DNA of 64,000 bases, taken from the NCBI RefSeq assembly GCF_041381155.1, contig NC_091142.1, positions 9,667,340 through 9,731,339 of the forward strand, given 5' to 3'. Made by a program: the position numbers and the translations under genes. This document shows positions 1-34,841 of the stretch, piece after piece. The notes beneath the pieces were generated by a model. It did not search any database. It was not told the DNA's origin and saw nothing but the letters and a program-made list of their open reading frames with translations. The DNA comes from Argopecten irradians (taxonomy: Eukaryota > Mollusca > Bivalvia > Pectinida > Pectinidae). The number at the start of each line of letters is the position of its first letter. The stretch's first letter is position 1.

Positions 1-806
1 AGGCTGATGTTTGGTACTATGTTGTAGGTTGATTTTTGGTAAAATGTTTAGGTTGATGTTTGGTACCATGTTGTAGGTTGATGTTTGGTACCATGTTGTA
101 GGTTGATGTTTGGTACCATGTTGTAGGCTGATGTTTGGTACCATGTTGTAGGCTGATGTTTGGTACCATGTTGTAGGTTGATGTTTGGTACCATGTTGTA
201 GGCTGATGTTTGGTACCATGTTGTAGGCTGATGTTTGGTACCATGTTGTAGGTTGATGTTTGGTACCATGTTGTAGGCTGATGTTTGGTACCATGTTGTA
301 GGTTGATGTTTGGTACCATGTTGTAGGCTAATGTTTTGGTACCATGTTTGAAGGCTGATGTTTGGTACCATGTTGTAGGCTGATGTTGTTTGGTACCATG
401 TTGTAGGCTTATTTTTTGGTACTATGTTGTAGGTTGATTTTTGGTAAAATGTTTAGGTTGATGTTTGGTACCATGTTGTAGGTTGATGTTTGGGAAGATG
501 TTGTAGGCTGATGTTTGGTACCGTGTTGTAGGCTGATGTTTGGTACCATGTTGTAGGTTGATGATGTTTGGTACAATGTTATAGGCTGATGTTTGGTACC
601 ATGGTGTAGGTTGATGTTTGGTACCATGTTGTAGGCTGATGTTTGGTACCATGTTGTAGGTTGATGTTTGGTACCATGTTGTAGGCTGATGTTTGGTACC
701 ATGTTGTAGGTTGATGTTTGGTACCATGTTGTAGGTTGATGTTTGGTACCATGTTGTAGGCTGATGTTTGGTACCATGTTGTAGGCTGATGTTTGGTACC
801 ATGTTG
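1..806 (+). repeat. 25-bp minisatellite carrying an SLC13-A 3' splice site and exon edge
   Basis: About 31 tandem copies of a 25-bp unit, TTGTAG + GCTGATGTTTGGTACCATG, with G[CT]TGATG variation between copies. The array enters from the left edge and runs straight into the exon beginning at 785. The real acceptor (TTGTAG, ending at 784) and the first 22 coding nucleotides of the exon match the unit exactly. A larger-scale duplication is visible: the variant units at about 1-67 recur at about 405-470. ORFs across the array on either strand are repeat artefacts. Confidence 0.5.
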
Positions 807-3800
807 CCCTGCTGGTTCCTGTCCATGTGGATGAGTAATACCGCCACGACAGCCATGATGGTTCCAATCCTTAACGCCATATTAGGTCAGATCAAGGAAT
901 CCCGACGGGTGGGTGAGTATTTCATATAACACCGACATCTCAACCAATCAAATCGTAGTCACTGTGACATCACATCATATCGCAACGTCACACTACTAAA
1001 CCTGTTGTCACAACGACATCGCTACAGAGTCATTACTCGTGTGCACGATTCCGGCAGACTTCTAGCAGAATTCGGGTTTACATTTGATTGAATAGATATA
1101 GACCGGTGTAACATTGAAAATAGATCCCCAATGCAATTGCCCTCTGGTCAATCACGGCTTATGAATAGACGACAGAATATTTCGGACTATTACAATAGCT
1201 TAAGGTAACCATTAACTATACACCTTATTATTTTCAGACATGAATGGCGATGCAGAGCATAAGACAATGACCGGAAAAACTGAGAACTCGACAGAACTAG
1301 AGGCCCTGAATACAACAGACAAAGAGATGTAGATTATCCGTTTACTTATTTTAAATTAATATTTAATGGCTTTCTTCTAATATTGTATTTTATATATCCG
1401 GGTATGATCTAAGCCTGAATAATCAACTTAGCGAATTAAAGTGCATATTCAGTATAAATGTGATTTTGAAAAATTTAGCGAATAAAAGTAACTATTCAGT
1501 ATAAAGGTGATTTCAAACAAATGTAGCGAATAAAAGTAACTTTTCGGTATACAGGCGATTTCAAACAAATATAGCGAATAAAAGTAACTGTTCAGTATAA
1601 AGGTGATTTCAAACAAATATAGCGAATAAAAGTAACTGTTCAGTATAAAGGTGATTTCAAACAAATGTAGCGAATAAAAGTAACTATTCGGTATAAAGGC
1701 GATTTCAAACAAATATAGTGAATAAAAGTAACTGTTCAGTATAAAGGGAATTTCAAACAAATACAGTGAATAAAAGTAACTGTTCAGTATAAAGGGAATT
1801 TCAAACAAATATAGTGAATAAAAGTAACTGTTCAGTATAAAGGGAATTTCAAACGAATGTAGCGAATAAAAGTAACTATTCGGTATAAAGGCGATTTCAA
1901 ACAAATGTAGCGAATAAAAGTAACTATTCGGTATAAAGGCGATTTCAAACAAATGTAGCGAATAAAAGTAACTGTTCATTATAAAGGCGACTTCAAATAA
2001 AAAGAAAATAGTACAGGTATCAATACAGTGGTTTCAACACTTCAACCTTCAAACTTTATTAGTCTCTTTACACAATACATTGTGTAGAGAAACATTTTTA
2101 CAACATTTAACAAATGTAACATAGAAGGACCACAAATTATGTAACTTTTTAAATATATCTTTGACAAATTTACATATATTTCTTAACATGTAACAAAGCA
2201 TCATGACTTGTTTACTTTTCTAGTGAGTATAAACCAGAACCTAAATATAACCAGGTTTGTAGACTGGACAACGAAGATGAGGATTTCATCAAGCTTGCTA
2301 AGACGTTCGCTTTGTGCATAGCCTTTTCAGCAAACATCGGAGGTATTGCTACCCTAACAGGAACTCCGCCAAACATCGTGTTCAAAGGTTTGGCAGACTC
2401 GTAAGTAAGAACTTTTCAGTGCCCACTAAGGTAAGGAAAACCAACAATGAAGAATAAATTTAACAATGATGCATTTTCATTCTCGAATATAAAACAACAC
2501 CTCATGTGCAAGCGATACCAACTGCTTCGCCAGACGTGGTACTACAATTCAATTGCTATCAGCTAACATTTATATTTCCCACTATTTTATATTCCATTTT
2601 CGGATTGTAGTATCCCTGTATTGACGGTGGTATAACGTGTGCAATGTCGGGGTATAGGATTTGTTTATATTATTATAGGTTATTTAACGACTATGGTACC
2701 GATTCCGGAATAACATTCGCTAACTGGCTGGTTGTAGGGTTTCCACTGTCTGTCATATGTCTAGCCTTCTGTTGGCTCTGGCTTCAGATCTACTACGAAG
2801 GGAAGGGGTGAGTGCAATAACAACAGACTTCAATTAAACTTAAAATGTTATATTGATTCAGAACATGCTGGTAATGATTTTGTTTCCATGTAAATGTTAT
2901 TTTCGCCTTCGACTAGATAAATGTGTGTTAACCACCATATTTCGTCAACTGTCAATCTAGTGTATGCAATACGTATCTTCAACTGTTAATCTAGTGTAAT
3001 CAATACGTTTCACCAATCGTCAATATAATGTACACGATACGTATCATCAACTGTCAATCTAGTGTAGGCAATATGTTTTATCACTTTACAATCTTGTGTA
3101 GGCAGTACGTATCAACTGTCAATCTAGTGTAGGCAATATGTTTTATCACTTGACAATCTAGTGTAGGCAATACGTATCAGCAGGCAATCTAGTGTACACA
3201 ATACGTATCATCAACTGTCAATCTAGTGTAGGTAATATGTTTTATCACTTGAAAATCTAGTGTGGGCAATACGTATCAATTTATCCCTTGTCCGTAATAA
3301 AATTACGTATTGTTTTTTTTTGTTTTGTTCCTAATTTCAAGGTTTTTCACCTGTAAGAAGAAGAGAAGTTCTTTTGACCAAGTGAAATATCACCTACAGA
3401 AGGAATACAACAGCTTGGGACCCATGACGTAAGTCCGCCTCTTTCTCTTAGCAGGTTTTCTAGATCTAGTGTATGCAATACGGTATGGAACTATAAAACG
3501 CAAAACAATGCTTAATACAGTTGTGCTCATTGATGAATCCTCGCGTTAGTGTTACAGAGATAAAACGACTAAATCATATATTAAATAAACACATATTTTT
3601 TTAGCATTATAAAAATACTTACAACATCAGTATTTATAAAAAAACGCCCACTTAAATGAAAAGAGCCATTGGTTACAGGTGTAACGTTATTAATCATATA
3701 AAATGTTTCGTTTGTCAAAATGAAAAATATCATGCAGACGAATAAGTTGGATAGCAGATGGATTGGGTGATGAAATATATAATTACATACTGTATAAATA

Positions 3801-6800
3801 CCAGTCTCGCGATCGACAGCTTTATATAATAGTCATTGTACAACATTTCCTACTGCTAGGTTTCATTTCTAAGTCATATCGCTGAATGCCAAGCACTACA
3901 ATCGTCACAACAAAGCTATCCTGGTGTAATTAATCACGTTAATGTCACATTTTCATGCCTTTTTTCACAGCGATTTAAATCGGATTAACCTGTGACTTTA
4001 AGTTGTTTTACAGCGCTTGTGTTTTACAGATTTGCGGAAGGCATCGTTCTCGTTGACTTTGTAACGTTGGCTGTACTCTGGGTGACCAGGAACCCCCAGT
4101 TCGTTCCTGGTTGGTCAGCCCTATTCCCCGACAAGTAAGAGTCTATATAGTAATATGTATGTACCGTAAAAACTCGTATAAAGTTCGCACCTTTGTAATT
4201 TTTGCAGGTACTTCTTGGATCTGAAAAATGAAAAGGAAGATTAGTGTTATCAATTTAGTTTGGCGTCTTTGTTTTATGACATGTAAAATAAATTATTTAA
4301 GGATTAACTTAAATTGACACATTTTATGTAAAAATCTTAACTTATACTGTTTTTTTTTATGAAAATACACTCAGATTTTTGAGTTGTATCTACATAACAT
4401 AAACATATATTCAAATTAATCCTAATGGATTCAATTTACTAAATATATTATCTTTATTTCGAATTCATTCTGGGACTCTATTTTTTCTATTAAATAATTA
4501 CGCCGTTATCTCAGCCATTCAAAAGCTACGTTACAAACGTCGACGCTATTTTTTTTCTTTACGAGCTGATAAAGTAAAGTTTTAAGCCAATGAAAACGCT
4601 CGTTACAGGCAAAATTTAATTATATTGTATATATTTAAGGATTAACTTGAATAGATTTTTTATGTTATGGAGTTATAACACAGAAATCTAAGTGTATGTA
4701 AGATGAGAGTACACAAAGATTTTTGTGTTATATATCTTCATAACATAAAAAATCTAGTTAATCATTATCATTCAATTTACTAAAACTAATTTCTTGAATA
4801 TTCAAAATTCATTTTGAGACTCTTTTGTCCCTGAAATCATCACGCCGTCATCTCCTCCAATCAAAAGCGACGTTACAAACGACGACGCCATTTTTTTCCT
4901 TTATGGGCTGATAAAGTAAATTTTTAAGCCAATGAAAATGCTCTTTACAAGCAAAATTGAATTAAAAATAATTTATACTAATGATAGTTGTTTATCTCGT
5001 TTTGATTTACAATAAGACGACCCAGAGTTTTATATAGGTTCTGTAGGAATTAGATTGACACTCATTTGTTATCTGCATATTATTCCACTTATCATTTTGT
5101 ATGCCATTTTGCCTGTTACTATTAAGGCAACCTTTAAAATGTTCAGATAAAATACGCAGTAAATCAGCGAGTAAGATTGCTGAACAGTTGTGTGTCTTTT
5201 TATGGGACTGTTTTCATTTTGTTTCTATGTCGGTAGCACTGATTTAGTAAACATCCTTTGTACTGTACAGGTATGTAGGAGATGCCTGTCCTGCTGTCCT
5301 GATGGCCGTCCTGTTATTTGTCCTTCCATCTAAACCACCAGATCTGTGGATCATCTTCAGACGAACTTCAAACCAAGATCGTAATATAGCTTGCTCATTT
5401 AAAAAAAAAAAATCTCCATTGTGTAAATTGAAATTTCGTACAATCAATATGATATTGTTTGAAAATTTTAAACCATGAAATTGATCTATACAGGAAAAGT
5501 ATATTTCTATAGTACTATGCAGTGATTTATATGCATTACGATATAGCAATTTAGAATATTACCACATATAACAATGGTACTATTATTATGACTCTCTCTC
5601 TCCTAAAATGTTTTTGCCTTCGTTAAATCTCCGTGACGCGCCAGTATACTATAGTAAGTTACCGTCGATACTCTTAGTGTTACTATTACTAACGTTACAT
5701 CCACCCCTAGATTATCTCCTAGTAAAACTGAAGGCAGTTCAAAAAATCTGAACCAATCATAGGACTGCAAAGATTTCTATTGAAGACTACCCAGAGAGAG
5801 AGCGACACCCAACTTCAAAGACACACGGTCAATCACAGTGTACCGTTATACGGCTCTTTTGATGTACATATCAAAGGACTATATTAAATTACCTATTCTG
5901 TTCTGTTGCCTCGAGTTTTTACTACGAGACAATCCAGGGGTAGATAAAATGTCAGTTATAATAACCCCTTAAGTATCGAGGATGACCAGCAAGAGCAAGT
6001 GTGACTATATATACAGTACGCGTCGGGTGGTTTTGTCCTCATCCACTTTCAGAGTTGTGAGTGTCACACGGAGATAGCAGCACGAAAATTCCACGTTTAC
6101 AGTATTAAAAAAGTAACTTCTATATCGTTATATTTACATTGCTATTGCACAGTACCTTTATGTTGCTAATAAGAATCAGAAAGTTAGTCCCTATAGCATT
6201 ATAGAGGAGGCGTGAAATGATGTGTACAGATTTAGAAAAGTAGTCCCTATATCGTTATAGAGGAGTTGTGTGATGATGTGTACATACAAATGTAATTAGA
6301 AAAGTAGTCTCTATATCGTTATAGAGGAGATGTGTGATGATGTGTACAAAATTAGAAAAGTAGTAGTCCTATATCGTTAAAGAGGAGATGTGTGATGATG
6401 TGTACAAAATTAGAAAAGTAATTCCTATATCGTTATAGAGGAGATGTGTGATGACGTGTACACAATTAGAAAAGTAGTTCCTATATCGTTATAGAGGAGT
6501 TGGGCGGTGAGGACGACGACGGCGAGGAGGATACAGCTACTGTAGTCCCACTGCTGGACTGGGAAACTGTCAACCGGAAAATGGCCTGGGGCGTCATTAT
6601 ATTGATGGGCGGAGGGTTCGCTCTGGCGGACGCTTGTAGTGTAAGTCCGAACAATACGGTAATTCGTCAACTGCGTTAACATATATTGAAAATCGGAGTG
6701 GAGAAATTTTGCTTGTATCTATCATTTTCAGCGGCCTAAATATATATGCATGGCGTGACTTTTTGGGGCTAACTTAAATACATTTTAGTTTTCCTAGTCA

Positions 6801-9800
6801 AAATGGAGCTAAGGGACAGCCAATTGGTTAATACGTATTCATATTAACATCTTTTCCTCTGAAAAGATGACCAAATGCTTACATTAATGTTTTACACTTT
6901 GGATAGTGTAATTTACCGTGTGAGTAACATTTCATATCAAAGGAACAACAACGCCGAACTTTCGCTACAACAAAAGCCTTCAGATAATTTTTGGTTACAA
7001 GTATTATTATTTTGAATAAAAACAATTTCAGCTATTAATGCTGAAGCTGTTGTCGAACTAGAAAGTGCTTTAAAACCTGCTTTGTTTTCTGTTTACATTT
7101 TATACAATGGCCCTACAGTTAGAATTTACCTGCTGCCCCTATTGCATGACGTAAAAGGCGACTTAATTTGGATCTTATCTTTTTCTTCTGCCCAATGACT
7201 TTGCACTAATGCCTCCCTTGGCACCACCTCACTTTTGGCCTTGAGATGAGCGTGCGCCCCTGTGAGAAAGGCTCTGGGTTCTGTCCCCTGGTCGATACAC
7301 ACCCAAGAAGTCTATACAAGTGGTAGTTTCTGCTCCTTTTTAAGCGCTCAGCATACAGGGAGTGGGACGACTGGTTCATCCGTTGTCAGTATTATGTGAC
7401 CGGGTGGGGTGTGTTGCTTGGTGTCTTCGGCGGCATGCTTCAGTGATATAGCACTATAAAAAGGGCAACAGTTCCACTATACAAGAAGACACAACATGAA
7501 TATACCGCAGTCTCCCAAAACACGCACCTCGCACAACATACACGCAACACACAACGCATGCATGGGAGGCCGTCCTTACATGACCATCGCTGTTGATAGG
7601 ACTTTAATAAATCAAACAAACAAACAACTCTTTTTCATTTTACCTTTAAATGTCATTAACTTACAATATCGTGCGGAATTATGAAAATTGACAAAATATT
7701 ACTACTCAAGCCTAATAACACAATTTGTCATAAATCACAAGAAAACTGAGTTAAAAAAATAAATATTCAGTCTTTAGAGTAGATATTGTATTACATATTG
7801 TAGCGCGAAAAGTGTACACATAGCTCTTATGGCTAAGGTAAAAAGGTTTTTTTTTTTGTAAAATACCTAAAAAACGAACTATAGTATGATCCTGATTATG
7901 TATTACACGTGCAGGCGTCCGGATTATCGGAGTGGGTGAGCGAGCAGTTGGTTGTACTAAATGTGATGCCACCCTGGGCAATAGCTTTGGTCCTAGCCTA
8001 CATCATAGCCGCGGCCACAAACATCACTAGTAACGCGGCCACCGCCACACTATTCCTGCCTATCGTCGGCAAACTGGTACGTACTAACTAACTATTCCTA
8101 ACTATTCTATATGAAAGAAGACAAATATCAGAACTTTTAATGTTATTTAAACTTTATTTATTACAATTTAATATATATATATATATATATAAATTTGAAA
8201 TATAGTTTGAAAGACGACCTGTAAACCAACTTTTAACTTGTGTCGCGACTTTACTACAATTACTAAGTATTGCGAATTCAGGAAAGTGAATTCTGCGGAA
8301 TCATTATTGAACCGAAATAAGTTACAATATTGATTTGATTTAAAAAAATATTATTTTGTTTGCTGTGTTTTAGTGATATTCTTATATTGCTAAATTAATA
8401 TAAGGGTTGTATACATTTTTTCTTGTGGATAAATTTTGTGAATTTACTTTGATCCCGAATTTCCCCGAAAGTAAATCACACGCGAAGGAAACTTGGATAA
8501 AAGTATCTCTATACCTATAATATATTGAAATATATTACATTATTTTAATGTGCAATCAACTTTTAATTCTCAATCGGTTTTGAATAGGTTAACAGAAAGA
8601 TCATTTTTTTTGCATTCGTAATATTATGTTTTGTTGTGTTTTTTTGGCTTTTTAAAAATAAAATTTTATAGAAAATATAAAATGCACGATTAAATTGAGT
8701 GTGAAAAGCGCGTAACTTCAAATCTGTACGTGTACAGTAACAATAAGTGTATGTTGTGTGCTGTTACCTTCTCGTTTAAGGCATCCTTTGTCCACTAACA
8801 GATAATGTAGGACTTAAGTTTCCTATTTTGGACTCTTACAGGCAATACAGCTCGAGACACATCCTCTATACTTCATGATACCGTGTGCCATATCAGCCTC
8901 GTTTGCGTTTCTACTTCCGGTTGGTACTCCTCCGAATGCCATCGTCTTCGCCACAGGGTACCTCAGTATAAAAGACATGGTATGGAATTTAGTAAATGCC
9001 TAAATGGTTAACGTCGATTCGGTTTGATTGACGACTTTTTAAAATACAAGTTTCGTTGCAAAGCAAAGTTTTCCTTTGTTTCGGATACATTTACATTGAA
9101 ACAACACTCCATAACTAATACCAGTTTCTCGTACTTTTCATTGGTCTCAAAAGAATAGTGAACTCACTCATCGTTACATTTATTTGATTATGTTATTTAT
9201 TTGGAAAATACTTATTTTGTTTCTTATCGATACCTTTTCCTGCCCACTGTAGAGAGTAATTATCGGTACCTTTTCCTATCCTCTGAAGTCAGCAATAATC
9301 GATACCTTTTCATATCCAATGTAGTCTGTAATTATCTATACATTTCATATTCACTGAAGTCAGTAATTATCGATATCTTTCCGATCCACTGCAATTAGTA
9401 ATTATGGATAACTTTTTCTATCAATTGTTGTCAATAATCATCGAAACCTTTCCTATTCACTGCTGTCAGTAATTATCGATATCTTTTCGTATCCACTTTA
9501 GTCAGTAATTGTCGATACCTTTCCTATCCACTATAATCAGTAATTATTATAGACACCTTTCCTATCAATTGTAGTCAGTAATTATTGATACCTTATTCCT
9601 ATCCACTGTAGTAAGTAATTATTGATACATTTTCATATCAACTGTAGTAAGTAATTATTGATACCTTTTCCTATCCACTGTAGCCAGTAATTATCGATAC
9701 CTTTTCCTATCCACTGTAGCCAGTAATTATCGATACCTTTTCCTATCCACTGTAGTCTGTAATTGTCGATACCTTTTCCTATCAGCTGTAGTCAGTAATT

Positions 9801-10272
9801 GTAGGTACCTTTCCTATCCACTGTAGTCAGTAATTATCGATACCTTTTCCTATCCACTGTAGTCAGTAATTATAGATACATTTTCCTATCCACTGTAGTC
9901 AGTAATTATCGATACCTTTTCCTATCCACTGTAGTCAGTAATTATAGATACAATTGTGCCTTTTCCTATCCACTGTAGTTAGTAATTATCGATACCTTTT
10001 CCTATCCACTGTAGTCAGTAATTATCGATACCTTTCCCTATCCACTGTAGTCAGTAATTATCGATACCTTTTCCTATCCACAGATGATTGGCGGCTCTGT
10101 CATCAATGTAGTTAGCGTCCTGTTCGTTTCTCTAGCGATGAACGCCTGGGCCAATCCATTTTACGAACTGTATACTTTACCCGAAGCTTTCCGGAAAGAC
10201 CCGATTACCATGACAACGGAAACCATGATAAACAGTTCATTAATATACAACGCCAGCAGCTGTGTATGCTAA
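785..10272 (+). CDS. SLC13A-like: SLC13-family sodium/carboxylate (or sulfate) cotransporter, copy A, 5' end outside the window
   Basis: Eleven spliced exons: 785-912, 1238-1328, 2224-2400, 2679-2807, 3342-3428, 4030-4134, 5271-5380, 6495-6640, 7915-8076, 8842-8979, 10084-10272. Phases join cleanly at every junction and give about 486 residues ending at TAA. Family motifs in order: SMWMSNTATTAMMVPI (first SNT sodium-site hairpin), NIGGIATLTGTPPN, LGPMTFAE, PLLDWETVNRKMAWG then GGGFALADA, NITSNAATATLFLPI (second hairpin), LLPVGTPPNAIVF, and a last membrane segment followed by a tail with two N-glycosylation sequons (NSS, NAS), as expected for the extracellular C terminus. SLC13 proteins are plasma-membrane symporters that move di- or tricarboxylates, or sulfate, with sodium. 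The missing first ~120 residues correspond to the first three exons seen in copy B at 57-60 kb. Donors at 1329 (GTAGAT) and 5381 (GTAATA) are non-consensus but phase requires them. Substrate cannot be decided from sequence. Five introns hold tandem arrays. Confidence 0.5.
1430..1995. repeat. 48-bp minisatellite in an SLC13-A intron
   Basis: About 11-12 copies of a 48-bp unit (core GCGAATAAAAGTAACTGTTC then AGTATAAAGG[TC]GATTTC) in the intron between exons ending at 1328 and starting at 2224. The array lies about 100 bp past the donor and 230 bp before the acceptor, so it does not include a splice site. The 176-aa minus-strand ORF here is the 16-residue translation of the unit repeated and is not a gene. 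Confidence 0.5.
2940..3285. repeat. 34-bp minisatellite in an SLC13-A intron
   Basis: About 10-11 degenerate copies of a 34-bp unit containing AATCTAGTGTAGGCAATACG followed by TATCATCAACTGTC. It lies in the intron between exons 2679-2807 and 3342-3428. One stray partial copy (TCTAGTGTATGCAATACGG) sits at about 3463-3482, on the far side of the next exon. Confidence 0.5.
4283..4970. repeat. Two diverged direct copies of a ~330-bp intronic repeat
   Basis: About 4283-4620 and 4640-4970 align along their length. Shared landmarks: TTTAAGGATTAACTT, TTCAATTTACTAAA, a CGCCGT[TC]ATCTC block, ACGTTACAAACG, GCTGATAAAGTAAA and AAGCCAATGAAAA. The second copy contains a palindrome around the sequence ATAACATAAAAAATCT. 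It lies in the SLC13-A intron between 4134 and 5271. Family not recognised. Confidence 0.5.
5661..5984. mobile_element. Long-TIR MITE, family A, copy 1
   Basis: The two ends are inverted repeats of about 70-75 bp. The left end begins CGATACTCTTAGTGTTACTA and the right end closes with ACCCCTTAAGTATCGAGG. Both arms carry a block like CCACCCCTAGATTATCTC. The interior (CAATCACAGTGTACCGTTAT and GGCTCTTTTGATGTAC) is shared with copies at 12425-12702 and 60855-61154. No coding capacity, so non-autonomous. Confidence 0.5.
6118..6494 (+). repeat. ~56-bp tandem array carrying an SLC13-A 3' splice site
   Basis: Six copies of a unit of 56-64 bp built around CTATATCGTTATAG followed by AGGAG[AT]TGTGTGATGATG. 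Acceptor-like AGs end at 6204, 6260, 6324, 6382 (degraded to AAAG), 6438 and 6494. The last is the real acceptor of exon 6495-6640. The first 8 coding nucleotides (AGGAGTTG) are identical to one unit variant, and similarity continues more weakly for about 15 nt. Confidence 0.5.
7120..7628 (+). mobile_element. Bivalve-type SINE, about 500 bp, near full length
   Basis: I recognise the consensus from memory as a common bivalve SINE: CTGCTGCCCCTATTGCATGA, TTCTGCCCAATGACTTTGCA, GGTTCTGTCCCC (a B-box-like block) and GTGACCGGGTGGGGTG. It closes with the typical CTGTTGATAGGAC and a tail ATCAAACAAACAAACAAC. The small ORF at 7496-7684 lies in its 3' part and is not a host gene. It is inserted in an SLC13-A intron in the same orientation as the gene. 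Confidence 0.5.
8168..8192. repeat. (AT)n microsatellite
   Basis: A short run of alternating A and T in the SLC13-A intron between 8076 and 8842. Confidence 0.5.
9217..10083 (+). repeat. 36-bp minisatellite carrying the 3' splice site of the last SLC13-A exon
   Basis: About 24 copies of a 36-bp unit: CCTTTTCCTATCCACTGTAG followed by TCAGTAATTATCGATA. Each unit holds a pyrimidine-rich tract and a TAG that looks like a 3' splice site. The array ends in CCTTTTCCTATCCACAG, the real acceptor of the terminal exon at 10084, where CTGTAG is replaced by CAG. Exon start (ATGATTGGCG) and unit (TAATTATCG) are only weakly alike, so exon sequence is less clearly included than in the 25-bp array. Confidence 0.5.
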
Positions 10273-12181: not shown

Positions 12182-12424
12182 TTTGCGGCTCTCTATAACC
12201 TTCCAACATGATCACATGATCCCTCTCATCCAATCACGTCTTGTCTACCATAATTGATAAGTTGCGCTCGCTCCAGAGATTACAAATCTAGTGTTTAAAC
12301 TGAATATCTTATTCCATACGTATCTATTGTTATATATTTTGTATATGGAAATGAATGCCAAGTTCATTGAATTATCCATAGTATTTATAAACTTATAATA
12401 GAATATGTCTCATTGTAGTAGCAG

Positions 12425-12702
12425 TATCCTCGATACTCAGGGGTTCCCACTTACGTGGACTATCTCATTAGTTGAAGCAGCTCAGCGGAAAACATTTGAC
12501 CAATCACAGGCTAGCAAAGATTTCCTTTGAAGATAAGAGAGAGCGACGCCTAACATCAATGAACCACAGTGTACCGTTATACGCAGACTTTTGATGTACA
12601 TCAAATGACTAAATTACCTATTCTATTCTGTTGCCTCCAGTTTTACTATGAGATAGTCCAGGGTGTAGAGATCGTAAGTGATCGGAACCCCTATCGAGGA
12701 TG
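12425..12702. mobile_element. Long-TIR MITE, family A, copy 2
   Basis: Starts TATCCTCGATACTCAGGGGT and ends ACCCCTATCGAGGATG, giving clear inverted ends. It shares ACCACAGTGTACCGTTATAC and CTTTTGATGTACATCAAATG with the copy at 5661-5984. Shorter than copy 1 through internal loss. Confidence 0.5.
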
Positions 12703-16199: not shown

Positions 16200-19100
16200 T
16201 TAAGATGAGCGCCAGAAATCAGCCGAGAGGAATCCCTCTGGATTTGGTATCTGTCTGTTATGTTTGAGACAGGTTTCTAAGAATGTCTCTAGCCGTGTGA
16301 GTGGTCCTCCCCCGGACGCTGAGGCCACCTGTTTCAGTTTTGGTAAGTACTCCTTGATGAGTAGGTATAAAAGTTTTTGGAATTGTTTCCCGTATCTTGC
16401 GTTGAGAGCGTTTCCTGTCACATGTAACATATCGTAGATCATGGTGGCGGTGATATCGGGGTGCGGGTGAATGTTCATTACCCGTGACAACCAGATCCAG
16501 GCGTTTTCTATCCCATGTGGGTGGGTATTTTGAGTTCCGCGAAGTGGAGGTGGTGGAGCTACCATTATGGCTGCATACAGACGCATCATTCCTGACATTC
16601 TTTTCAAGAACTGGTCCTGTTTTTCTACACTCCCATCAGCATTGTATCTGTAGCCCAACGCCCTGGAAATCAGAAATATAAGATGTCTTTTAAATACAAG
16701 ATATCATTAGGCAGACACAAGATGGATAACAAATTGAATACGGTCAGCAGTGGGAGAAATGAGATATCCTGACATATTACTGCAAACTTTCCATCTCTGG
16801 GTCAAGAGTTAAAATCCCAGGTTAAGCAGTTGCCAGATACTGACAGCTAGTCAGTATTTTTTCTCCAGGTACTCCAGCTTTCCTCTTCCTAAAAACCTAG
16901 CACATCCTTAAATTACTGTAAAAAAAACTATTTTCCTGGTAGTTTTATTTTAGAGTTTTTCGTGCTGTCGTTTAAGCTTAAATTCATGTACAGCACCAAA
17001 TTTAGTAAAAGGATATTTCTGGTATTGAATTGTGCTAATTTATATCTCTACTGATGATTATATTTTACCGGTACACATTTGAGCCAAGATCTGACAGCAC
17101 AAAAAATAGGTACTTTTATCACATATATGGCCCGTCCAGCCATGTCATACGGCGATGTCATACATATTGTAAGACCCATGTTTTGACCTCATAATATATA
17201 TATAACATTGCATGATTGTCTCATTAGACAGAGACATCATATCCGAGCCAGATTTCTACTGTTTTATATAGAGAGGAAATTTTTTGCTTATATTTCTATT
17301 AATAAAAGTTATGATAAATAGAATCTTACACTCATGACTATGTGATATGAAATTTATCAAACTCGTTAATGATTGTGGCATATCAAATTATTGAACTCGT
17401 TTGATACATTTCATATCACATAGCCATTCATGAAAGATCTTTTATTTACAATACCATTGATGTTAATAGGACCTTAGTCTAATCTGAGAGTGACTAATTG
17501 GTACCTGTGGTAGTCTTCCGTGGACTGTCCCTCTTGTCGTGGTATGTAGTAAGGGACAGTATAGGGACACGTGGTGTGTAGATGACTTAGGAACATGTTA
17601 CCAATATCTGGGTGTTCCAGCCACAGACCAACAAACACCATTGCCGTGGCAAACGCTGTTTCGTGTTTAGATGACACCTGTTCATCTCCTTTTTTCTAAA
17701 AGCAAAAAAAATTAATAAAAGTAGAAAAATGAAAACGTAAAAATAATTAAAATTTTATTACAGAAATTTTGACACCAAACATTTTATCCGCTTTACTATT
17801 ATTTTCTCAAAACATTTATCGTAGTAAACAAAGGTAACTATGTACACAACAAATTCCAATTGTCAAGAACTAATATGAGTTACCTGTTGGCCTTTTTGTT
17901 CTTCAATCAATTCCAAACATATAGTATATGGACAATTAAGAAACAATTAGAATAAGTCAACAACTACAGAATAAGAAAGATCCTGGCTTGATAAATCAAC
18001 ATGATAAAGAAATAGTGAAAACAAACTTCAATGGCAAAATTCCAACAAGAATGCCTTAAGCTGTATAGTATGCATAATTGTGAATATTCCTACACCAATC
18101 ATATACCACTTGGCAATGAGGCAGCTATCATGAATTTTCACCACATGACACTTGGGGCTCTTTATAATTCTGGAGAAATATTCTTTCAGTACTTCCAGAG
18201 AAAAAGAAGTAACATTCTTAAATATTACTACAATTATCCTAGGTGGGGGTATGTTAGCTTACACTCCAACCATTCCCTAAATGGAATATGTACTAATTAC
18301 TGAGAAAATCCTACGTATAATATTGACCAGGTTTTTATCACTTACCACAATCAATTTAGCGGCCAGGTTTTTATCACTTACCACAATCAATTTAGCGGCC
18401 AGGTTTTTATCACTAACCACAATCATTTTAGCAGCCAGGTTTTTATCACTAACCACAATCATTTTAGTGGCCAGGTTTTTATCACTAACCACAATCATTT
18501 TAGTGGCCAGGTTTTTATCACTTACCACAATCATTTTAGCCGCCAGGTTTTTACAGAACGTTAAAGCCTGTGGATGAACGCTGACATTCACTCGTTTATT
18601 GCCAACTTCAACGGACTTGCCCGACATTAAATCCAGCAGCCGCTTGAGTTTCTCTCGCAGATGCTCACCACTGACAGCAGATATGGCATTGATAGGAGTA
18701 TTCACAGCCTTTTGTAGGTCAAACTTTAACTTCTTAGACTGAAAAAGAGAAAATAAATTACATGAACAATTAAATCTTTGAGATGTATTCCAGATATAAT
18801 TCATCATTCAGCTTTGAAAACACAGAGAGAAAACCTCCCATTTCTAAAGAGTGGAACAGTTTATCACAAGTCTAATATTAAATCAAAGTTAGAGTGAATG
18901 AAAGATGTATTCAAATATTACTCGTTAAGAAACTTAATTCTTAAAACACCTCGTGTGCTGAGATGTAATTACATTGTATTTTGACAAAATCAGATTAATT
19001 AAAATACATAAACTTTAAAGATTCTACACTGCTGACAAATGGTATTTTTTTGCTATCAAAAACAGGAGCAGACAAATTTAGTATTTTTCTTCAGCAACAA

Positions 19101-22100
19101 AAATATATATATTTTACACCATTACCATCATTTAAAAGTGGTTTTTTTTTATTATTCTTTAAAATACTTGAATAATCAGAAATAATTAATTGCATCCATG
19201 ACACTAAGCCTTATATGGAATGAAGTACTGATTGCACACGCACCGAGAGCAAAATAAATTCAAACTAAATTATCTTATATGTACATGTATTTTTATTTTA
19301 ATTAGACAAATTAATACACACAATTACATACCAATTATTGTTCAAATGTGTATCCTTTAATTATGCTCTGTCGGCAGTGAAGCATCTTTAAAGACAATAG
19401 GCAGATTCCCTAAGTAACTACTGTTAATCACATATAACTGGCCCATCAAGACATGCCATACGGCCTTGTCATAAATATCGTAAGACACATATTTGATAAC
19501 ACTACTATAACGCCACATATAGTTTTGACATCATTATCTATATATGACGTTGCGTGATTGTCTAAGTAGACGGACCCATCACATCCAAGTCAGATTTCTA
19601 CTGTTTTATATACAGACAAAATTTAAAGTTTTACTTAAATTTCTATTAATAAAAGTTATGTGATAATAGAATCTTACACTCGTGTCTATGTAATATGAAA
19701 TTTATGAAACTTGTTGAATAATTTTATTTGGCAATCGCCTAAAGGCTAGTGGCATATCAAATTATTGAACTCATTTGATAAATTTCATATCTCATAGCCA
19801 CTCATGTAAGATCCTCTATATATAGATAAACCAGGTAGAACTGACCTCCGGGATAGACAGCGGTTTGATCAGCTCCTCCGTCTTTTTCAGGTCCTCCTGA
19901 AGTTTGGTGTACCACTGGAATGCCTCTAAATCTACACACTGAATTTCATCGTCAGCCACTGTAACAGAACAAAGTCCTGATAATCATTTGAAACTCCAAT
20001 AAAACAAACTTGGCTTATAAAATGCTCATGTATAACAAAATACTAATCCCCAATTTTACCTGGGTATATATTGAAGATTAAATAATTTAAAATAAATGTA
20101 AACTTACTTTGTATTTTACAAAACAAATTTTAGTTCATAATGAAATCAGAATTGAATTTTGTACACTTATACTTCAATGTCAATTTCCAAATATTTTATT
20201 GACAAATAGATATTAAATGTCAATAGGATTGGACATAAGGCATAGGCTTATTGCTCTCCTGATATAGAGGCAAAGTAAACATAAAACATATTAAAGATAA
20301 AGGTAAGGGGAGGCAACTCCCTGATGAAGAAAGAGAAATGATCAATTATTAATTATTTATTGTAACTCTTTAAATCTACATTTATCTTTTTAATGTGTTC
20401 ATCAAATTTGACCTATAGTTATTTACCTGTATGTCTGGTAAGCTTACATAGGAGGCCATATAGCATATATCCTACCAGGTTGACCTCTGACCTATACCAA
20501 TTATCTGTAGTGGGCCTACCATCAGGTGACACCAGATTGACCTCTGACCTATACCAATTATCTGTAGTGGGCCTACCATCATGTGACACCAGATTGACCT
20601 CTGACCTATACCAATTATCTGTAGTTGGCCTACCATCATGTGACACCAGATTGACCTCTGACCTATACCAATTATCTGTAGTGGGCCCACCATCTTGTGA
20701 CACCAGATTGACCTCTGACCTATACTGATTATCTGTAGTTGGCCTAACATCATGTGACACCAGATTGACCTCTGACCTATACTGATTATCTGTAGTTGGC
20801 CTAACATCATATGACACCAGATTGACATCTGACCTGTCCAGTACATCATGTGATACTTACAAGCTGCTGCTCCCCCTGAGGCCGAGCTATTTTTGTTTGT
20901 AGAAGCCCCGGCTTGGGCTGATGCTGCCGCGGCGGCCTTGGCCTGTATTAATCAATACACACAATCATAAATCCGAGATACAAGGGATTCAGTATTAAAC
21001 AAGTATTTGCCCACACAGATTTAGCAGATATTCATAATGATGCAAACATGAGAAAGCTAGTTATATTTAACAGGAAGAAATCTTGGATATTTTTGTTATT
21101 AATTTGTTTATCACTAAGCTAATTCCCAAATGATGAGGACTGCAGTGTGAAAAAAGAGATGAAAACAGAACAATCTGATTAAAATACAGCTCCTTATAAC
21201 CACTCTGTTCAATAGAGGGTCTGACAACATCCCATAAGAGGTCATGTTCAGATGAACTTTATACCACCTGTACTTCAGATCAAATTGCTACATCATTTTG
21301 TCCCATTATAGATATATCGGGTACATTTAGCTTTCGTCGTTCTCTTTAGGTGAAATGACTACATACACGAAAATAATTCTGACAGCTTTTTCAAACTATT
21401 TTGTCCCCCGAAATTCACTTTCAAGATTCTGAATGTAACAATTGGAAGTGACCCTTAATGGAATGTTGTCAGATTCTCTTATCAAATGAAGTTATAATTA
21501 GGATCTGTATTTAAATCAGATTGGAAGAATAAGTGACTTAAACAGGGGACTTTGTATAGGAAACTCTCATGCTCCCTCCTTACCCCTGGAATCCTCAGTT
21601 ACTCATTCACAAACGACCGACAAACCGACAGCCAGACAAGATAATACCTTCTCACTCTCCAAATCATAAACGATCGACAGACCGACAGTCAGACAGACAA
21701 AATATTACCCTCTCACACTCCGACTTACAAATGACCGACAGCCAGACAGACACAATAATACCCTCTCACTCTCCAACTCATAAACGATCGACAGTCAGAC
21801 AGACAAGATAATACCCTCTCACTCTCCGACTAATAAACGACCGACAGTCAGACAGACAAGATAATACCCTCTCACTCTCCGACTAATAAATGACCAACAG
21901 ACCAACAGTCAGACAGACAAGATAATACCCTCTCACTCTCCGACTAATAAACGACCGACAGTCAGACAGACAAGATAATACCCTCTCACTCTCCGACTAA
22001 TAAACCCACCGACAGTCAGACAGACAAGGTAATACCCTCTCACTCTCCGACTAATAAACGACCCATAAACGACCAACTGACCGACTGACAGACAGACAGA

Positions 22101-25100
22101 CAGACAAGATAATACCCTCTCACTCTGACTCACAAACAACTGACCGACAGACAGACTAGGTATATTCTCCCTCACTCTCTGATTCATAAACGACCAACTG
22201 ACCGACTGACAGACAGACAGACAAGATAATACCCTCTCACTCTGACTCACAAACAACTGACCGACAGACAGACTAGGTAATTCGCCCTCACTCTCTGATT
22301 TATAAACGACCAACTGACCGATTGACAGACAGACAGACAAGATAATACCCCTTCAATGTGACTCACAAACAATGGACTGACTGGCTGACAGTCAGACAGA
22401 CAAGATAATTCCTACTCAATCTCTGACTCATAAACGACTGACCGACAGACAGACTAGGTAATTCGCCCTCACTCTCTCACTCTCCAAACGACCGGCTGAC
22501 CGACCGACAGTCAGACAGACAAGATAATACCCTCTCACTCTGACTCACAAACAACTGACCGACAGACAGACTAGGTAATTCTCCCTCACTCTCTGATTCA
22601 TAAACGACCAACTGACCGACTGACAGACAGACAGACAAGATAATACCCTCTCACTCTGACTCACAAACAACTGACCGACAGACAGACTAGGTAATTCTCC
22701 CTCACTCTCTGATTCATAAACGACCAACTGACCGATTGACAGACAGACAGACAATATAATACCCCTTTCATGTGACTCACAAACGAAGGACAGACAGCTG
22801 GCTGACAGTCAGACAGACAAGATAATTCCTACTCAATCTCTGACTCATAAACGACCAGCCAACTGACCGACAGACAGACAGACAAGAGAAGATAATTCCG
22901 CCTCATTCTTACTCACAAACAACTTTTTTACTCACAAACAACTGACAGTGAAGGTAATTCCAGTATAAACACCTCTCTCCATTTTGTTGCGGGAGTGTAT
23001 AACAGCAGTAGGTATGACTTACCTGTTCCTCTTGTCTCTTAGCTTCAGCTGCTGCTTCTGCTGCAGCTACTTTCACTTTCTCTTCTTCTAGCTTTTGTTT
23101 TTTTTCTTCTGCAATATATATACCAATTGGTAAATATATAGGTCTACACTGGTCATGAGGAAATTTTGTTTTTATCTAGTATGCATCAGAATTATAAAAA
23201 CCCAATCATCTATCAAATATGTGAAGAATTCCTACTAGTAACTTATGTTTACAATGCCATTCAAAACTCATATTCTTATCATAATTAAATAATTCTGGAA
23301 AAGCACAACAAAATATTGCTAACCTATTCTCTTTGTGATAGCCTCGTAAGCATTCAGAGCAAACATGACGGCCTCCTTGAGTTTATCTTGTAGATTAGGG
23401 TTGACTTCTCCTGTCTGTGCCTCGCGTTTGATATGACCCTCCAGATCTGTGCTGGTCTTGTTGATGCGTTCTACTATCACTTTACACTGCTCCGACAGCT
23501 TTCTCTGTACTGAACAGTTGGGCTGTATAGCCACGATCCGATTTTGTACGGTCTTCAGGTCAGTAAATAACTGCTTTAATTTCTCCTCTCTGTCCTTCTT
23601 CTCTTGTTCTCTGTGAATCAAGTCGTAACAATTAATTAATCTGTGAATGCTGATAGTGTAACTAACACTGTAATGGCGATCAATGACAAAAGCAAAATTT
23701 ATTACAGTTAGACCCATAGAGGAAAATTTACTTACACAACTTCGACTGCCCTTACCATCCATCATTTGTACTCAGAGCTTTAAATCTCGCCAGATGTTGA
23801 TACTTTCACTGGAAGCAGCATGTTTTGTCTCTCAAATGTTATTCGTACCAAAATTTCACTTCATATTTTCCGAGTTTTTTTTAAGTTTTCTGAATTCAAA
23901 TTTTCTGAGCTCTTTTATCAAAGATTAAGAGGGATGTGTTAACGCTGTATATTTAAAGCTGCTACTTACTTTTTCCTTATTTCATCTTGGATCTGTTCAT
24001 GTTTTCTTTCTAACATCTAGTGGAAGTAAATAAAGAAAAATGTACACATAATTCCTGGTTAAAGATAACATTTTAGCAACTTGTAAATATCTTTTTTATT
24101 GATTTATTTCACTGTCTATAACATGTTCTATATATAATGTGCCTTGATTAAGGGGCAGATTTACTATCAATGGGGGGAAGTGGTGGCTGAGTGTTTAAGA
24201 TGTCGCGACATATTGCCACAAGCTCTCCATCTCTGGAATGCTATTCGGGGCAGTTACATTTTCTCGTGATACTCCACTACTATAAAAACCTAGCACATCC
24301 TAACATGAACCTGGCTGTAAATAGGACATAAATTAAACCACCACACCAATGGTTACCATGGTAACAATGACACATTGTAGGTTTTTACCTGGGCATGTTT
24401 CTTGTGATCTTCCTGCATCTTTTGGTAAGCTTTGGCTGACTCATCTCTCCTGCAAATAAAAAGGTGTATGATAATGATAATTGATGACACCAAACATTAA
24501 GTTCATCTGGCTTCCAGAATGTGACTGGTTTATGCCAACTTGACCAGAATGTTCAGCCATGCAACATGATGTATTAAAGATGCTACACTGCTAACAAATG
24601 GTATTTCTTCACTAAAAAACACAGAAGCAGACGAATTAGTATTTTTTCTTCAGTTACAAAAATTACTTACTTTACACCATTACCACCATTGAAAAGTCTG
24701 AGCTTCTAATTTTACTTCAAGTTAAAAGTATGAAAAATAATTATGTGCATCCCGAAAAAATTCCGTGACACTATATCATATATGGAATAAAGAACCGATA
24801 GCGCATGCACCAAAGAAGAAATAATGTATTTTATATTATTTTTTTATGTTAATTAGGCATATATATACACGATTAAACACCAATTATTGTTCAAATGTCA
24901 TGTATGCTCTGTCGGCGGTGGAGCATCTTTAAGGCTGCATTGTATTAGATGCCTTCTGTAAATATTTACACTTTTTGTACAGTTTCAGTATGATAATTAC
25001 CCTTTTTTGTGCTGCTGAAGAATGGTTTCTTGTTGCTGTTGAGCTTTGAGGATATTTTTACGTTCCAGATCCTTAAGTTGTCTTTCTGTTCTCTGCTGTA

Positions 25101-28194: not shown

Positions 28195-31100
28195 ATGGAC
28201 AGATTGTGTAGTAAAGAAGTGATCACTGCAACATGCCTAGGTGTAGGTGTTGGATTACTGATAGGATGGATAAGTCGTGGAAGAGTCATCAGAAGACGGA
28301 GACCGTCAACGGGAAATGGTGTCGGAGATTCCGGCGACGTGAGTACATTTGATTATCTGCCATTCCTCACGTGTTTGTTTACGTATGACAACCATCGCCA
28401 TCGGTAAATTTGATTCTATAAAACTAAGAGAGGCAGAGAAAAATATTACTTTTGAATTGAGTGTGAGGAAACCTAGATATTTGTTTGCATTGAATGATGT
28501 GTTGTTTATATATAACATAAGTATTTGCTCAACTAAACATTTTCTAATGCGTCATTCAGTAGCATATAATTGTAGACTTTGTGGCGTATTTTGCTTTGTT
28601 TTGGTGTTATGCTAATGATGTTGTATTTGTCTGATTGAGTGGAAAGACACTCAGTGTGCTGCTGTATGTGTAGATCTTGCTGTAACTGTATTGCATATAT
28701 CTGTAACATGAGAGGAGAAAATGTCATACATGCCATATTTTTTTAGGGGTGGAAAGGGAGATTGATAACCATTTTGAGGGATTTTGGTCTAAAAAGAGGG
28801 AGGTATACGCGCGACATATATGAATAAATTAAATATCTGCTTTTTTATGATGAAATTCTGCATTCATATTGAATTTTACTGAAATAAAGGAATGTGTGGT
28901 TTTTGCAAAAGTAGTCACATCCCTATATACACCCAGTTCTGGAGCAGTTTTTATTGTTCGAAATATTAGTCTGGGCTTTTTAATAATCTCTGACAATAAC
29001 GGATAATTAACTTAGATAAAGTTCTTAAATTTACAAGCATTAAATTAAAAAAAAAACCAGAATCGTTACAGTAGTATTCAAAATGTAATTTAATAGAGCA
29101 AACGGTAGGCCAATCAACTTCGCTTCGGTTTTATTTTTTTAAAAAACCACGTGTAATTGAAAGATTAAACAAAAATGCTAGCTAGTTAGAGTTTTTAAAG
29201 TAAAATCATGGTCTAAACATACACGACATGTTGTCAAATATTCAAATTGAACACGACTATTGCTGGTACCCGCATATAACTTTCGCGATATTCACGTTGC
29301 ATATACATGTAGCATATACATACGGTAGAATTTTGTTTATCTTTCAACTACACGTGGTTATTTAAAAAATAAAACGTGGAAGCGAAGTTGATTGGCTGCC
29401 GTTTTGCTCTACTAAATGGTGTATACGGCGGCCATTACAAATGTGTGAAATAGCCAATTGGTCTCGGAAGTATTTCATTGTACACAGTTTGTTTTAATTT
29501 CATAAATGGGATGTAACATGGGGGCAAAGGAGTACATAAGATCCCAATATAAAGGTATGTAAACGTTTTCTCGGCATTGCATGGACGATATATTAGAAAT
29601 ATGCCGCTGACGTAGCGTAGGCCAAATCTGGCCTACGATTTCACATTTTTAAGAGGTACCGCGAGCTGACTATATATTAGGCAAAAAAAAAATTAAAAAA
29701 AAAAAAAAAAAAGCCTAATAATATAGGCAGGTTTAGCGGACTACTGTATGTGTAGATCTTGCTGTAATGTATACGGGAGGTTTTGTCTCACGCCGGGAGG
29801 TATGGCATGTATGAAATGTAGCAGCCAGACCGGGATTTGAACCCGGGACCCTCAGAACACTAGCCGAGTGCTCTACCAACTGAGCTACCTGGTCACCGAT
29901 GATCGACCCAGTCCAATCCTGCTACACTCCTCCCTCCTTTCTCGAAGGCTTCGCCCTCGAAGACATACGAGACCCTTACAAACACCACCACCGTGGGTTA
30001 TTTAGTTGGGCGCCAGTTCTGTAACAAGAGAGGAGAAAATGTAGCAGCCAGACCGGGATTCGAACCCATGACCCTCAGAACACTAGCAGAGTGCTCTATT
30101 GACTGAGCTACCTGGTCGATGATCGACCCAGTCCAATCAGGCTACTTATCATTGTGTATCATTCTATTAGTTGTTTCCTTGTGTTTTAGCTTAGTGATAA
30201 CAACATGCTGTCAGACACTGGCGAGTACAAATTTATAGTGGCCGTTAGGACAGACCTAAGGATGGGAAAAGGGAAGATCGCTGCACAGGTTGGTTACTTT
30301 ATATCAAAAAAATTCTATTTTATTTATCGAGACATGTAAAATACCCCCTTGGGTTCAAGGGTTTAGGTCTAACATTAAATTTGTTTGAATTTGTGAGTCC
30401 CGTGGCCCATACAAATATATGAGAGTCCATTTTGAGTAACAGACATATGAATTATCTAGACTGAAAATTCTCAATTATTTACTTTCCATATTAATGTTGT
30501 AATTGAGACATGGGTAAGGTTGAGGCATTATAAACATTAAAACACAGACAGGACATGTTTAACGGTTCCATATGTCTGTTTGTGCGCTGTTTTGACTTAT
30601 TTTTAATGGATCCACATGTTTGACTATTTTAACAGGTTGCCCATGCTGCAGTCCATGCTAACAATTCCTGTGCTAAACATCACCCTGATATGTTGAAGGA
30701 GTGGAAATATTGTGGTCAACCAAAAATTGTGGTGAAAATAGACAGTGAAGCATCACTGTAAGTTTTTTCATCTTCTGATTTTACATCAATGTTTAATAGG
30801 AAAAAGTAAAATAGTAAAGATTGGTGGATCATAACAGCACAAATATACCAGGACCAAACTTATTCAATACTAGCTAATTTACAATAAGTGTATAGTAGAT
30901 TAAATTAATGTAATTATAAAAATTGATTTGACTGAAAAGGACCTAAGTCAGGGGTCAAGGTCAAAATTTTAAAAGTCAAGGTAAAACTTTAATATAATCT
31001 TTTAAATTTTAAATTGTAAACTGATCATGACTCTACCCTTAATGTGTTGAATATTTTATATCTTACAGAGTGGCTCTGGCTTCTAAAGCCAGGTCTATAG

Positions 31101-32503
31101 GTCTGAACGCAAGTGTGATTCGAGACGCTGGACGGACCCAGATTCCTGGAGGTTCTGTCACAGTCTGTGGAGTTGGTCCAGGTAAGTACTCACTGGGTCA
31201 GTGTGGAGTTGGTCCAGGTAAGTCTTGTAGAGTTGGTCCAGGTAAGTCTTCACAGGATTCTTGTGGAGTTGGTCCAGGTAAATCTTCACTGATTTCTTGT
31301 TGAGTTTGTCCAGGTAAGTCTTCACTGGGTCAGTGTGAAGTCGGTCCAGGTAAGTCTTCACTAGGTTCTTGTGGAGTTGGTCCAGATAAGTCCTCACATG
31401 GTCCTTATGGAGTTGATCTGGGTTTATGTTCACTGGGCCCATGTGGAGTTTGTCAATGTAAGTCTTCACTTGGTCCTTGCGGAGTTGGCTCAGGTTAATC
31501 TTCACTGGGACCATATGGAGTTGGTCCATGTAAGTCTTCACAGGCTCCTTGGTGAGTTGGTTCAGGTAAGTCTTCACTGGGTCCTTGTGGAGTTTGTCCA
31601 GGTAAGTCTTCACAGGCTCCTTGGTGAGTTGGTCCAGGTAGGTCTTCACTGGGTCCTTGTGGAGTTTGTCCAGGTAAGTCTTCACAGGGTCCTTGTGGAG
31701 TTGGTCCAGGTAAGTCTTCATTGGGTCCTTGTGGAGTTGGTCCAGGTAAGTCTTCACTGGGTCCTTGTGGAGTTTGTCCAGGTAAGTCTTCACAGGCTCC
31801 TTGGTGAGTTGGTCCAGGTAAGCCTTCATTGGGTCCTTGTAGAGTTGGTTCAGGTAAGTTTTCACAGGGTCCTTGTGGAGTTGGTCAAGGTAAGTCTTCA
31901 CTGGGTCCTTGTGGAGTTTGTCCAGGTAAGTCTTCACAGGCTCCTTGGTGAGTTGGTCCAGGTAAGCCTTCATTGGGTCCTTGTAGAGTTGGTTCAGGTA
32001 AGTTTTCACTGGGTCCTTGTGAAGTTGGTCCAGGTAAGTCTTCACAGGATTCTTGTGGAGTTGGTCCAGATAAGTCTTCCCAGGTAAGTCTTCACAAGGT
32101 CTTGTGGAGTTGGCCCAGGTAAGTCTTCACAGGGTCTTTGTGGAGTTGGTCCAGGTAAGTCTTCACTTGGTCCTTGTGGAGTTGGTCCAGGTAAGTCTTC
32201 AGTGGGACCATATGGAGTTGGTCCATGTAAGTCTTCACTGAGCCCATGTGGAGTTTGTTGATGCAAGTCTTCACTGGGTCCTTGTGAGATTGGAAACTTT
32301 ACATATATGAAAGTATATGTGTCAGATTTGGTTATAATAGAGTTTATCAATATAATTGGCAGTATATTTCATGCCTTAAACAACATCAAGGGCTTCAATT
32401 TAACAAAGCCATATATGATATATATCTCAGGTGTTTGTTTGTTTATGTTTCAGGGCCCAACGACCTTGTCAGCTCTGTAACAGGACATCTCAAGTTGTTA
32501 TGA
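28195..32503 (+). CDS. PTRH2: Peptidyl-tRNA hydrolase 2, complete, 5 exons, 175 aa
   Basis: Exons 28195-28338, 30190-30288, 30636-30757, 31069-31181, 32454-32503 join in phase to 175 residues (human PTRH2 is 179). Residues ~8-26 (VITATCLGVGVGLLIGWIS) form an N-terminal membrane anchor followed by Arg-rich sequence, as in the mitochondrial outer-membrane protein. The Pth2 domain spans ~61-175 with EYKFIVAVRTDLRMGKGKIA, QVAHAAVHA, LKEWKYCGQPKIVVK, RDAGRTQIPGGSVTV, GVGPG and C-terminal SSVTGHLKLL. Pth2 enzymes cleave peptidyl-tRNA that falls off ribosomes, and animal PTRH2 also acts in anoikis signalling. The last intron opens with a 36-bp array of the exon 4 donor. AATAAA signals lie at 32517-32522 and 32891-32896. 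Confidence 0.5.
29088..29417. mobile_element. MITE with ~80-bp inverted ends, family C
   Basis: Left end ATTTAATAGAGCAAACGG and right end CCGTTTTGCTCTACTAAAT are inverted. The pairing continues through CCAATCAACTTCGCTTC / GAAGCGAAGTTGATTGG and ACCACGTGTAATTGAAAGA / TCTTTCAACTACACGTGGT. Interior ~150 bp, no ORF. In PTRH2 intron 1. Confidence 0.5.
29606..29731. repeat. Small palindromes and A-rich run
   Basis: CGTAGGCCAAATCTGGCCTACG at about 29617-29638 is a perfect-looking short hairpin. TATATTAGGC and GCCTAATAATA flank an A-rich run at about 29671-29725, suggesting another hairpin or an old element tail. Confidence 0.5.
29822..29897 (-). mobile_element. tRNA-like sequence, probably a SINE head, copy 1
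   Basis: Minus strand: GACCAGGTAGCTCAGTTGGT (A box) and CGGGTTCAAATCCCG (B box and T arm), with a GACCAGG / TCTGGC acceptor-stem-like pair. The anticodon loop (around CTAGTGTT) is one base too long for the stem, and a near copy lies 216 bp away with the same flank. I read it as a dispersed tRNA-derived repeat, not a working tRNA gene. Confidence 0.5.
30038..30118 (-). mobile_element. tRNA-like sequence, probably a SINE head, copy 2
   Basis: Same arrangement as 29822-29897, with B-box GGGTTCGAATCCCGG and preceded by the same AGAGAGGAGAAAATG flank, which also occurs alone at about 28709. The T arm is altered (CATGGGTTCG), consistent with a decayed copy. Confidence 0.5.
31163..32290 (+). repeat. 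36-bp minisatellite of the PTRH2 exon 4 donor site
   Basis: About 30 units of 36 bp: GGAGTT[GT]GTCCAG + GTAAGTCTTCAC + TGGGTCCTTGT. The first unit is the real exon end (31169-31181, encoding GVGPG) with its donor at 31182. Most later units keep GTAAGT; a few have GTAAAT or ATAAGT. Donors 2 to 4 (G at 31218, 31242, 31278) can be reached in frame; a stop follows soon after. The 295-aa minus and 238-aa plus ORFs are the 12-residue translation of the unit and not genes. Confidence 0.5.
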
Positions 32504-33198: not shown

Positions 33199-33259
33199 TG
33201 AAAATAATCTTATCTGTTCAAGACTATGATAATATTGCTTAACATATACCATCAATTAA

Positions 33260-34815: not shown

Positions 34816-34841
34816 AACTTGTTGAACTCCCGAATGCATTT

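Follow-up and report, generated by a model that had tools for sequence, protein, structure and literature searches.

The window analysed here is a stretch of 64,000 nucleotides of the Argopecten irradians genome (RefSeq assembly GCF_041381155.1, contig NC_091142.1, positions 9,667,340 to 9,731,339), in which the genes SLC13-A, GLE1 and PTRH2 have been modelled by eye from the sequence and by script. SLC13-A has 11 exons within the window, extending from 785 to 10272, which when joined give a single continuous reading frame. The last seven exons of GLE1, on the minus strand, also join in a continuous frame, and PTRH2 consists of five exons from ATG to stop, encoding 175 residues. Comparison with solved structures aligned the SLC13-A protein to the SLC13A2 structure 8w6c (E 5.6e-98), the GLE1 protein to the GLE1 structures 7tbl and 6b4f (E 1.3e-85) and the PTRH2 protein to the Bit1/PTRH2 structure 1q7s (E 2.1e-43); Pfam agrees with these identities (PF00939, PF07817 and PF01981, respectively). 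Altogether 21 introns were modelled: 10 of SLC13-A, 4 of PTRH2, 6 of GLE1 (its 5' part being left out) and 1 of the paralogue SLC13-B. The evidence for the junctions consists of joined reading frames and homology, in the DNA sequence of one haplotype. The alignments to homologues that cross 10084, 18525 and 31182 contain no inserted repeat; the outermost junctions at these sites thus yield the conserved protein.

Tandem arrays were found by TRF and then parsed unit by unit; the features are collected in Table 1. The counts exclude TRF rows with about two copies (10357, 10470, 13750, 30954, 48848 and 62041), as well as arrays lying beyond the modelled introns (at 33.9-36.2, 38.4, 42.4 and 43.8 kb). 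In a junction-recurrence test, 50 nt across each junction were compared with the same intron for a second copy scoring at least 40. The 43 junctions comprised the 42 of the modelled introns and the acceptor at 785.

Table 1. Minisatellites and associated exons in the analysed window
Feature	Position	Strand	Basis and context
25-bp minisatellite of about 32 copies, cut by the window edge	1..806	+	TRF, parse; partial SLC13-A intron; spans acceptor 784/785
SLC13-A exon, beginning with the final array copy (22 nt)	785..912	+	Gene model, SLC13A2 alignment, parse
48-bp minisatellite, clear of both junctions (counter-example)	1429..2001	+	TRF, gene model; SLC13-A intron 1329-2223
34-bp minisatellite, clear of both junctions (counter-example)	2945..3278	+	TRF, gene model; SLC13-A intron 2808-3341
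56-bp minisatellite	6174..6510	+	TRF, parse, junction-recurrence test; SLC13-A intron 5381-6494, includes acceptor 6494/6495
36-bp minisatellite	9224..10081	+	TRF, parse; SLC13-A intron 8980-10083
36-bp minisatellite at GLE1 donor	18327..18553	-	TRF, gene model, GLE1 alignment, parse, readthrough
57-bp minisatellite, not junction-spanning	20474..20835	-	TRF, parse, junction-recurrence test; GLE1 intron 20860-19959
53/116-bp minisatellite, clear of both junctions (counter-example)	21629..22852	-	TRF, gene model; GLE1 intron 23022-20943
36-bp minisatellite at PTRH2 donor 31181/31182	31166..32293	+	TRF, gene model, PTRH2 alignment, parse, readthrough
SLC13-B paralogous exon, its intron matching that of SLC13-A 785 in position and phase	61256..61410	+	TRF, junction-recurrence test, paralogue comparison

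The parse of the arrays shows that several units are composite, being part exon and part intron. The unit of the 25-bp array comprises 22 exonic and 3 intronic nt, that of the GLE1 donor array 28 exonic and 8 intronic nt, and that of the PTRH2 array 16 exonic and 20 intronic nt. The 56-bp array at 6495 takes in 5 exon nt according to TRF and up to 16 according to the parse, in which 12 of the 16 match the unit. The sequence-only reading had placed the splice site within an array at five junctions. This is borne out at 785, 6495, 18525 and 31182, and fails at 10084, where 2 nt separate the end of the array from the junction. The 22 coding nt it had assigned to the 25-bp array are confirmed (22/22 exon nt match the unit). 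It was also right that exon is included in the GLE1 and PTRH2 arrays, although the lengths given, about 22 and 13 coding nt, have to be raised to 28 (27/28 matching) and 16 (16/16 matching). The 57-bp array, which had been put a few bases past a GLE1 donor, begins 25 nt beyond the donor at 20860, and its extension to about donor +5 depends on a weak, partial match (z 4.2).

At the acceptor 785, the upstream exon lies beyond the window edge and the SLC13A2 alignment begins at the first codons of the exon. The exonic part of the unit encodes LMFGTML, which is aligned with LILGFML of SLC13A2 and LLLGMML of SLC13-B. This alignment of the exon residues with homologues indicates that the exon is the older element and that the array consists of exon copies. 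TAG forms the end of 30 of the 31 complete upstream copies, and a stop follows all 31 upstream acceptor copies, the phase being taken from the model. These stops further support the acceptor at 785, as does SLC13-B, whose intron agrees with it in position and phase. Neither junction of the SLC13-B intron 60465-61255 carries an array by TRF or by the junction-recurrence test; the intron at 785 is therefore older than its array. The exon copy at 785 reads TAG|GC rather than AGGT, and many inner copies read TAGGT. At 6495 a stop is found in 5/5 upstream acceptor copies. This acceptor falls in a non-conserved loop, at a gap in the SLC13A2 alignment, and its assignment depends on the reading frame only. 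The array at 10084 contributes a pyrimidine tract only, the AG (10082-10083) and the exon lying outside it.

In GLE1, the last exon base before the array-bearing intron is 18526 and the intron starts at 18525. GT is present at all six donor positions of the array, and at three of them it forms GTAAGT (the canonical 18525, and 18381 and 18345); the other three (18489, 18453 and 18417) read GTTAGT. The inner donors at 18381 and 18345 are identical to the canonical one over 9 nt. Readthrough from the exon remains in frame and is open through the whole array up to a stop at 18279.

The column test in PTRH2 covered 28 of the 31 donor positions, counting the canonical one; three copies that were gapped, carried insertions or were cut at the end were set aside. 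GTAAGT is present at 21 of these 28 positions, and 17 have the full CAGGTAAGT (CAG|GTAAGT). Readthrough is open to a stop at 31301, past three inner donors at 31218, 31242 and 31278, and 27 of the 30 inner copies start after this stop. The intron measures 1272 nt, a length not divisible by 36, and the array does not extend to its acceptor. The donor columns show no special conservation, ranking 8 of 36 circular windows (0.925 vs 0.900 overall). This rank gives no sign of selection keeping decoy sites, and the same column test gives no sign that decoy donor sites are being purged. The suggestion that arrays altering splicing have been retained thus finds no support in this array.

Unit copies outside the arrays were sought for the nine units across the window, with 15 shuffles for each. 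Copies above the null maximum were recorded for the 34-bp (34 vs 33), 56-bp (36 vs 31) and 57-bp (30 vs 28) units, that of the 56-bp unit lying directly upstream of its own array; for the other six units no copy within the window exceeded the null maximum. The 34-bp copy is at 3464-3486, in the next intron beyond an 87-nt SLC13-A exon, and with its score of 34 against 33 it is only suggestive.

The window contains further repeats and a further candidate gene. A 170/340-bp tandem satellite at 33845-36314 consists of two blocks about 90% alike (TRF and self-BLAST), and presumably resembles bivalve satellite-like repeats. On the minus strand, PTRH2 intron 1 holds a pair of tRNA-like sequences (29821-29894 and 30044-30117) whose anticodon loop is unusual. 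They lie within a 112-bp repeat, the copies of which are 89% alike, and the first of them meets the Rfam threshold for tRNA; they are probably a tRNA-derived repeat. Self-BLAST also revealed a dispersed element, 75-81% alike, at 5670-5944 (in the SLC13-A intron 5381-6494), 12489-12669 and 60861-61100 (in the SLC13-B intron). A dispersed repeat of about 360 bp occurs at 13157-13524, 24569-24932, 33254-33633 and 19014-19139, two copies being 94% and the others 77-85% alike. Two GLE1 introns carry a related MITE-like element (17180-17439 and 19522-19829), 83-92% alike and with internal inverted repeats. Open stretches at 52333-54383 match VWA and two chitin-binding Peritrophin-A (CBM_14) domains in Pfam, and may be exons of a single secreted matrix protein.

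The original description of repeats across exon-intron boundaries, under the name of mirages, is reportedly that of Canestro 2002. In amphioxus Adh3, tandem repeats with units of 10-72 bp run across exon-intron boundaries, and the globins BflGb6 and BflGb9 contain boundary-spanning repeats with units of 150-160 bp, as given in the available parts of PMC3087553 and PMC3902484; PGBD5 and troponin C are listed as further carriers in the available part of the latter. According to the accessible sections of PMC3087553, mirages occur at both 5' and 3' boundaries and splice signals are present in many copies, with splicing apparently undisturbed on the evidence of RT-PCR and Adh3 data. Together with the donor repeats of human IFI6 (excerpts of PMC4526556), these cases show that a class of this kind, not known to the sequence-only reading, has been described.

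The arrays of the scallop window resemble amphioxus mirages in having units of exon plus intron at both 5' and 3' boundaries, in their copies of splice signals and in unit sizes of similar order. Units that include the junction are found at 785, 6495, 18525 and 31182, and neither at 10084 nor in the 57-bp array; copies that carry splice signals are found in the PTRH2, GLE1 and 785 arrays. They differ from mirages in belonging to three other genes of another animal, a bivalve, and in being known from the DNA of one haplotype alone. The border-spanning arrays found in the literature are mainly those of amphioxus, and the open-access literature yielded no report of border-spanning minisatellites in molluscs. 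In earthworm metallothionein, tandem repeats lie within the first intron and, in the available part of PMC12783039, are not described as border-spanning. The border arrays reported here are an extension of an already described phenomenon.

The four border arrays are probably minisatellites of the mirage type, that is, neutral duplications across a border which expanded into the intron. The arrays, their exon-derived units, the junctions as defined by homology and frame, and the outermost copy that keeps the conserved protein are all directly observed; we infer the order of events, their neutrality and the copies used in RNA. A short tandem duplication would by chance have extended across a pre-existing exon-intron border, the overlap being smaller than a full unit, and would be harmless as long as the outermost junction still joined the same exon. 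Unequal exchange or slippage would then expand the duplication into the intron, and splicing would use the border-proximal copy and leave the inner copies as decoys, with a possible exception for low-level use of in-frame inner donor copies in GLE1 and PTRH2. The exonic part aligns with homologues at 785, 18525 and 31182, which indicates that the exon preceded the array and that the array arose by copying it. The exon overlaps (22/25, 28/36, 16/36 and 5-16/56 nt) are each smaller than one unit, as the model of harmless duplication requires. The stops behind the upstream acceptor copies at 785 and 6495, the unremarkable donor columns of PTRH2, the array-free intron of SLC13-B and the likeness to amphioxus mirages also speak for this reading. 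The 17 of 28 perfect CAG|GTAAGT sites of PTRH2 could well tempt the spliceosome, so the harmlessness of the array is not certain.

These donor copies bear on a different reading, that the GLE1 and PTRH2 arrays act like the repeat of human IFI6, with inner donors adding in-frame repeats of 12 residues and copy number tuning the isoforms. Both units are 36 nt long, equal to 12 codons, the readthrough frames are open past inner donors in both genes, and the inner donors include exact copies of the canonical site. In the excerpts of PMC4526556, two downstream repeat units serve as donors in human IFI6 isoforms. The likeness extends to the position of the array at a donor and to in-frame donor motifs of the inner copies in GLE1 and, for the first three inner copies, in PTRH2. 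It ends at the use of inner donors, which that source reports for IFI6 and which is only possible in GLE1 and PTRH2. Homologues of both proteins show no insertion at these sites, three of the five inner GLE1 donors read GTTAGT instead of GTAAGT, and nearly all inner PTRH2 copies lie behind the stop. An IFI6-like role is considered unlikely.

Whether the arrays favour borders has been assessed by a placement null, in which each of the eight arrays with known introns was moved along the intron that holds it and could project beyond it by less than one unit. Three of the eight cross a junction against 1.51 expected (P 0.18), four lie within 2 nt of one (P 0.055) and five within 30 nt (2.7 expected, P 0.08). 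About 1.5 crossings in eight are expected at random because intronic arrays occupy much of their introns. The earlier argument that several such cases would be unlikely if arrays were seeded at random is consequently not upheld. When the 25-bp array, whose intron is cut by the window edge, was added with an assumed free length of 100-1500 nt, four of nine arrays cross (P 0.085-0.046) and five of nine fall within 2 nt, with P 0.024-0.011 at a post hoc threshold. The arrays themselves are certainly beyond chance and their placement at junctions is borderline, with uncorrected P values spanning 0.01 to 0.19 depending on the definition in a region picked for showing the pattern.

The junction-recurrence test addresses coverage, whereas the placement null addresses edges. 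Five of 43 junction 50-mers recur, compared with 47 of 210 random intronic 50-mers (one-sided P for an excess 0.97), in a test that is harder on junctions, half of each piece being exon, and with controls (ten from each of the 21 introns) that are not independent. In four of the five the recurrence passes through the junction; at 10084 it breaks off 2 nt ahead of the junction.

A duplication mechanism with a preference for borders, which might act by AGGT microhomology or by breaks linked to the spliceosome or to R-loops, would gain from the nine-array counts and from the occurrence of the pattern in three unrelated genes; the five of nine edges within 2 nt count against purely random placement. 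Against it stand the eight-array crossing count, the lack of an excess of recurring junction pieces and the fact that region and threshold were chosen post hoc. AGGT microhomology in particular fits 785 poorly, with 3 intronic nt in the unit and TAG|GC in the exon copy, in spite of the many inner TAGGT copies. Such a mechanism is quite unlikely, and the case that this stretch alone makes for a border bias is weak: the placement is compatible with chance or with a mild excess. It is very unlikely that this is a non-chordate genome where minisatellites have a preference for arising at borders and would provide housekeeping genes such as GLE1 and PTRH2 with alternative in-frame donors, the protein changing with repeat number in steps of 12 residues.

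The arrays have also been considered as intermediates of intron gain by tandem duplication of exonic AGGT, or as dual-specific splice sites of the polyubiquitin type. The PTRH2 units do carry CAG|GT, a potential donor or acceptor. Dual-specific sites in tandem repeats are described for UBC, and human tandem-repeat introns have an excess of them, in the available text of PMC10809524; intron gain has been proposed for amphioxus mirages in that of PMC3087553 and is reviewed, as a result of tandem genomic duplication, in that of PMC3443670. A short tandem duplication with splice motifs is common to the arrays and to the latter model as set out there, from which they differ in that the duplication lies on an existing intron. 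PTRH2 resembles the UBC type in its AG|GT units and departs from it in the position of its acceptor and in its intron length. At 785 intron gain is rejected, the same intron position and phase being present without a junction array in SLC13-B, which is a paralogue and not another species; for the set as a whole this origin is extremely unlikely. It is likewise extremely unlikely that some junctions are wrongly assigned, with arrays that would be repeats of the ordinary intronic or exonic kind: the assignments come from DNA, 6495 lies in a variable loop and the exon upstream of 785 is beyond the window, but the frames are continuous and the homologue alignments cross 10084, 18525 and 31182 and, at 785, begin with the first codons of the exon.

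Each of the four border arrays offers a natural experiment on the choice of the spliceosome among many identical sites, and together they are a clean starting point for testing border bias across the genome. Four border arrays within about 32 kb, maybe in another phylum, would suggest that such structures are a common by-product of the birth of minisatellites in intron-rich genomes.
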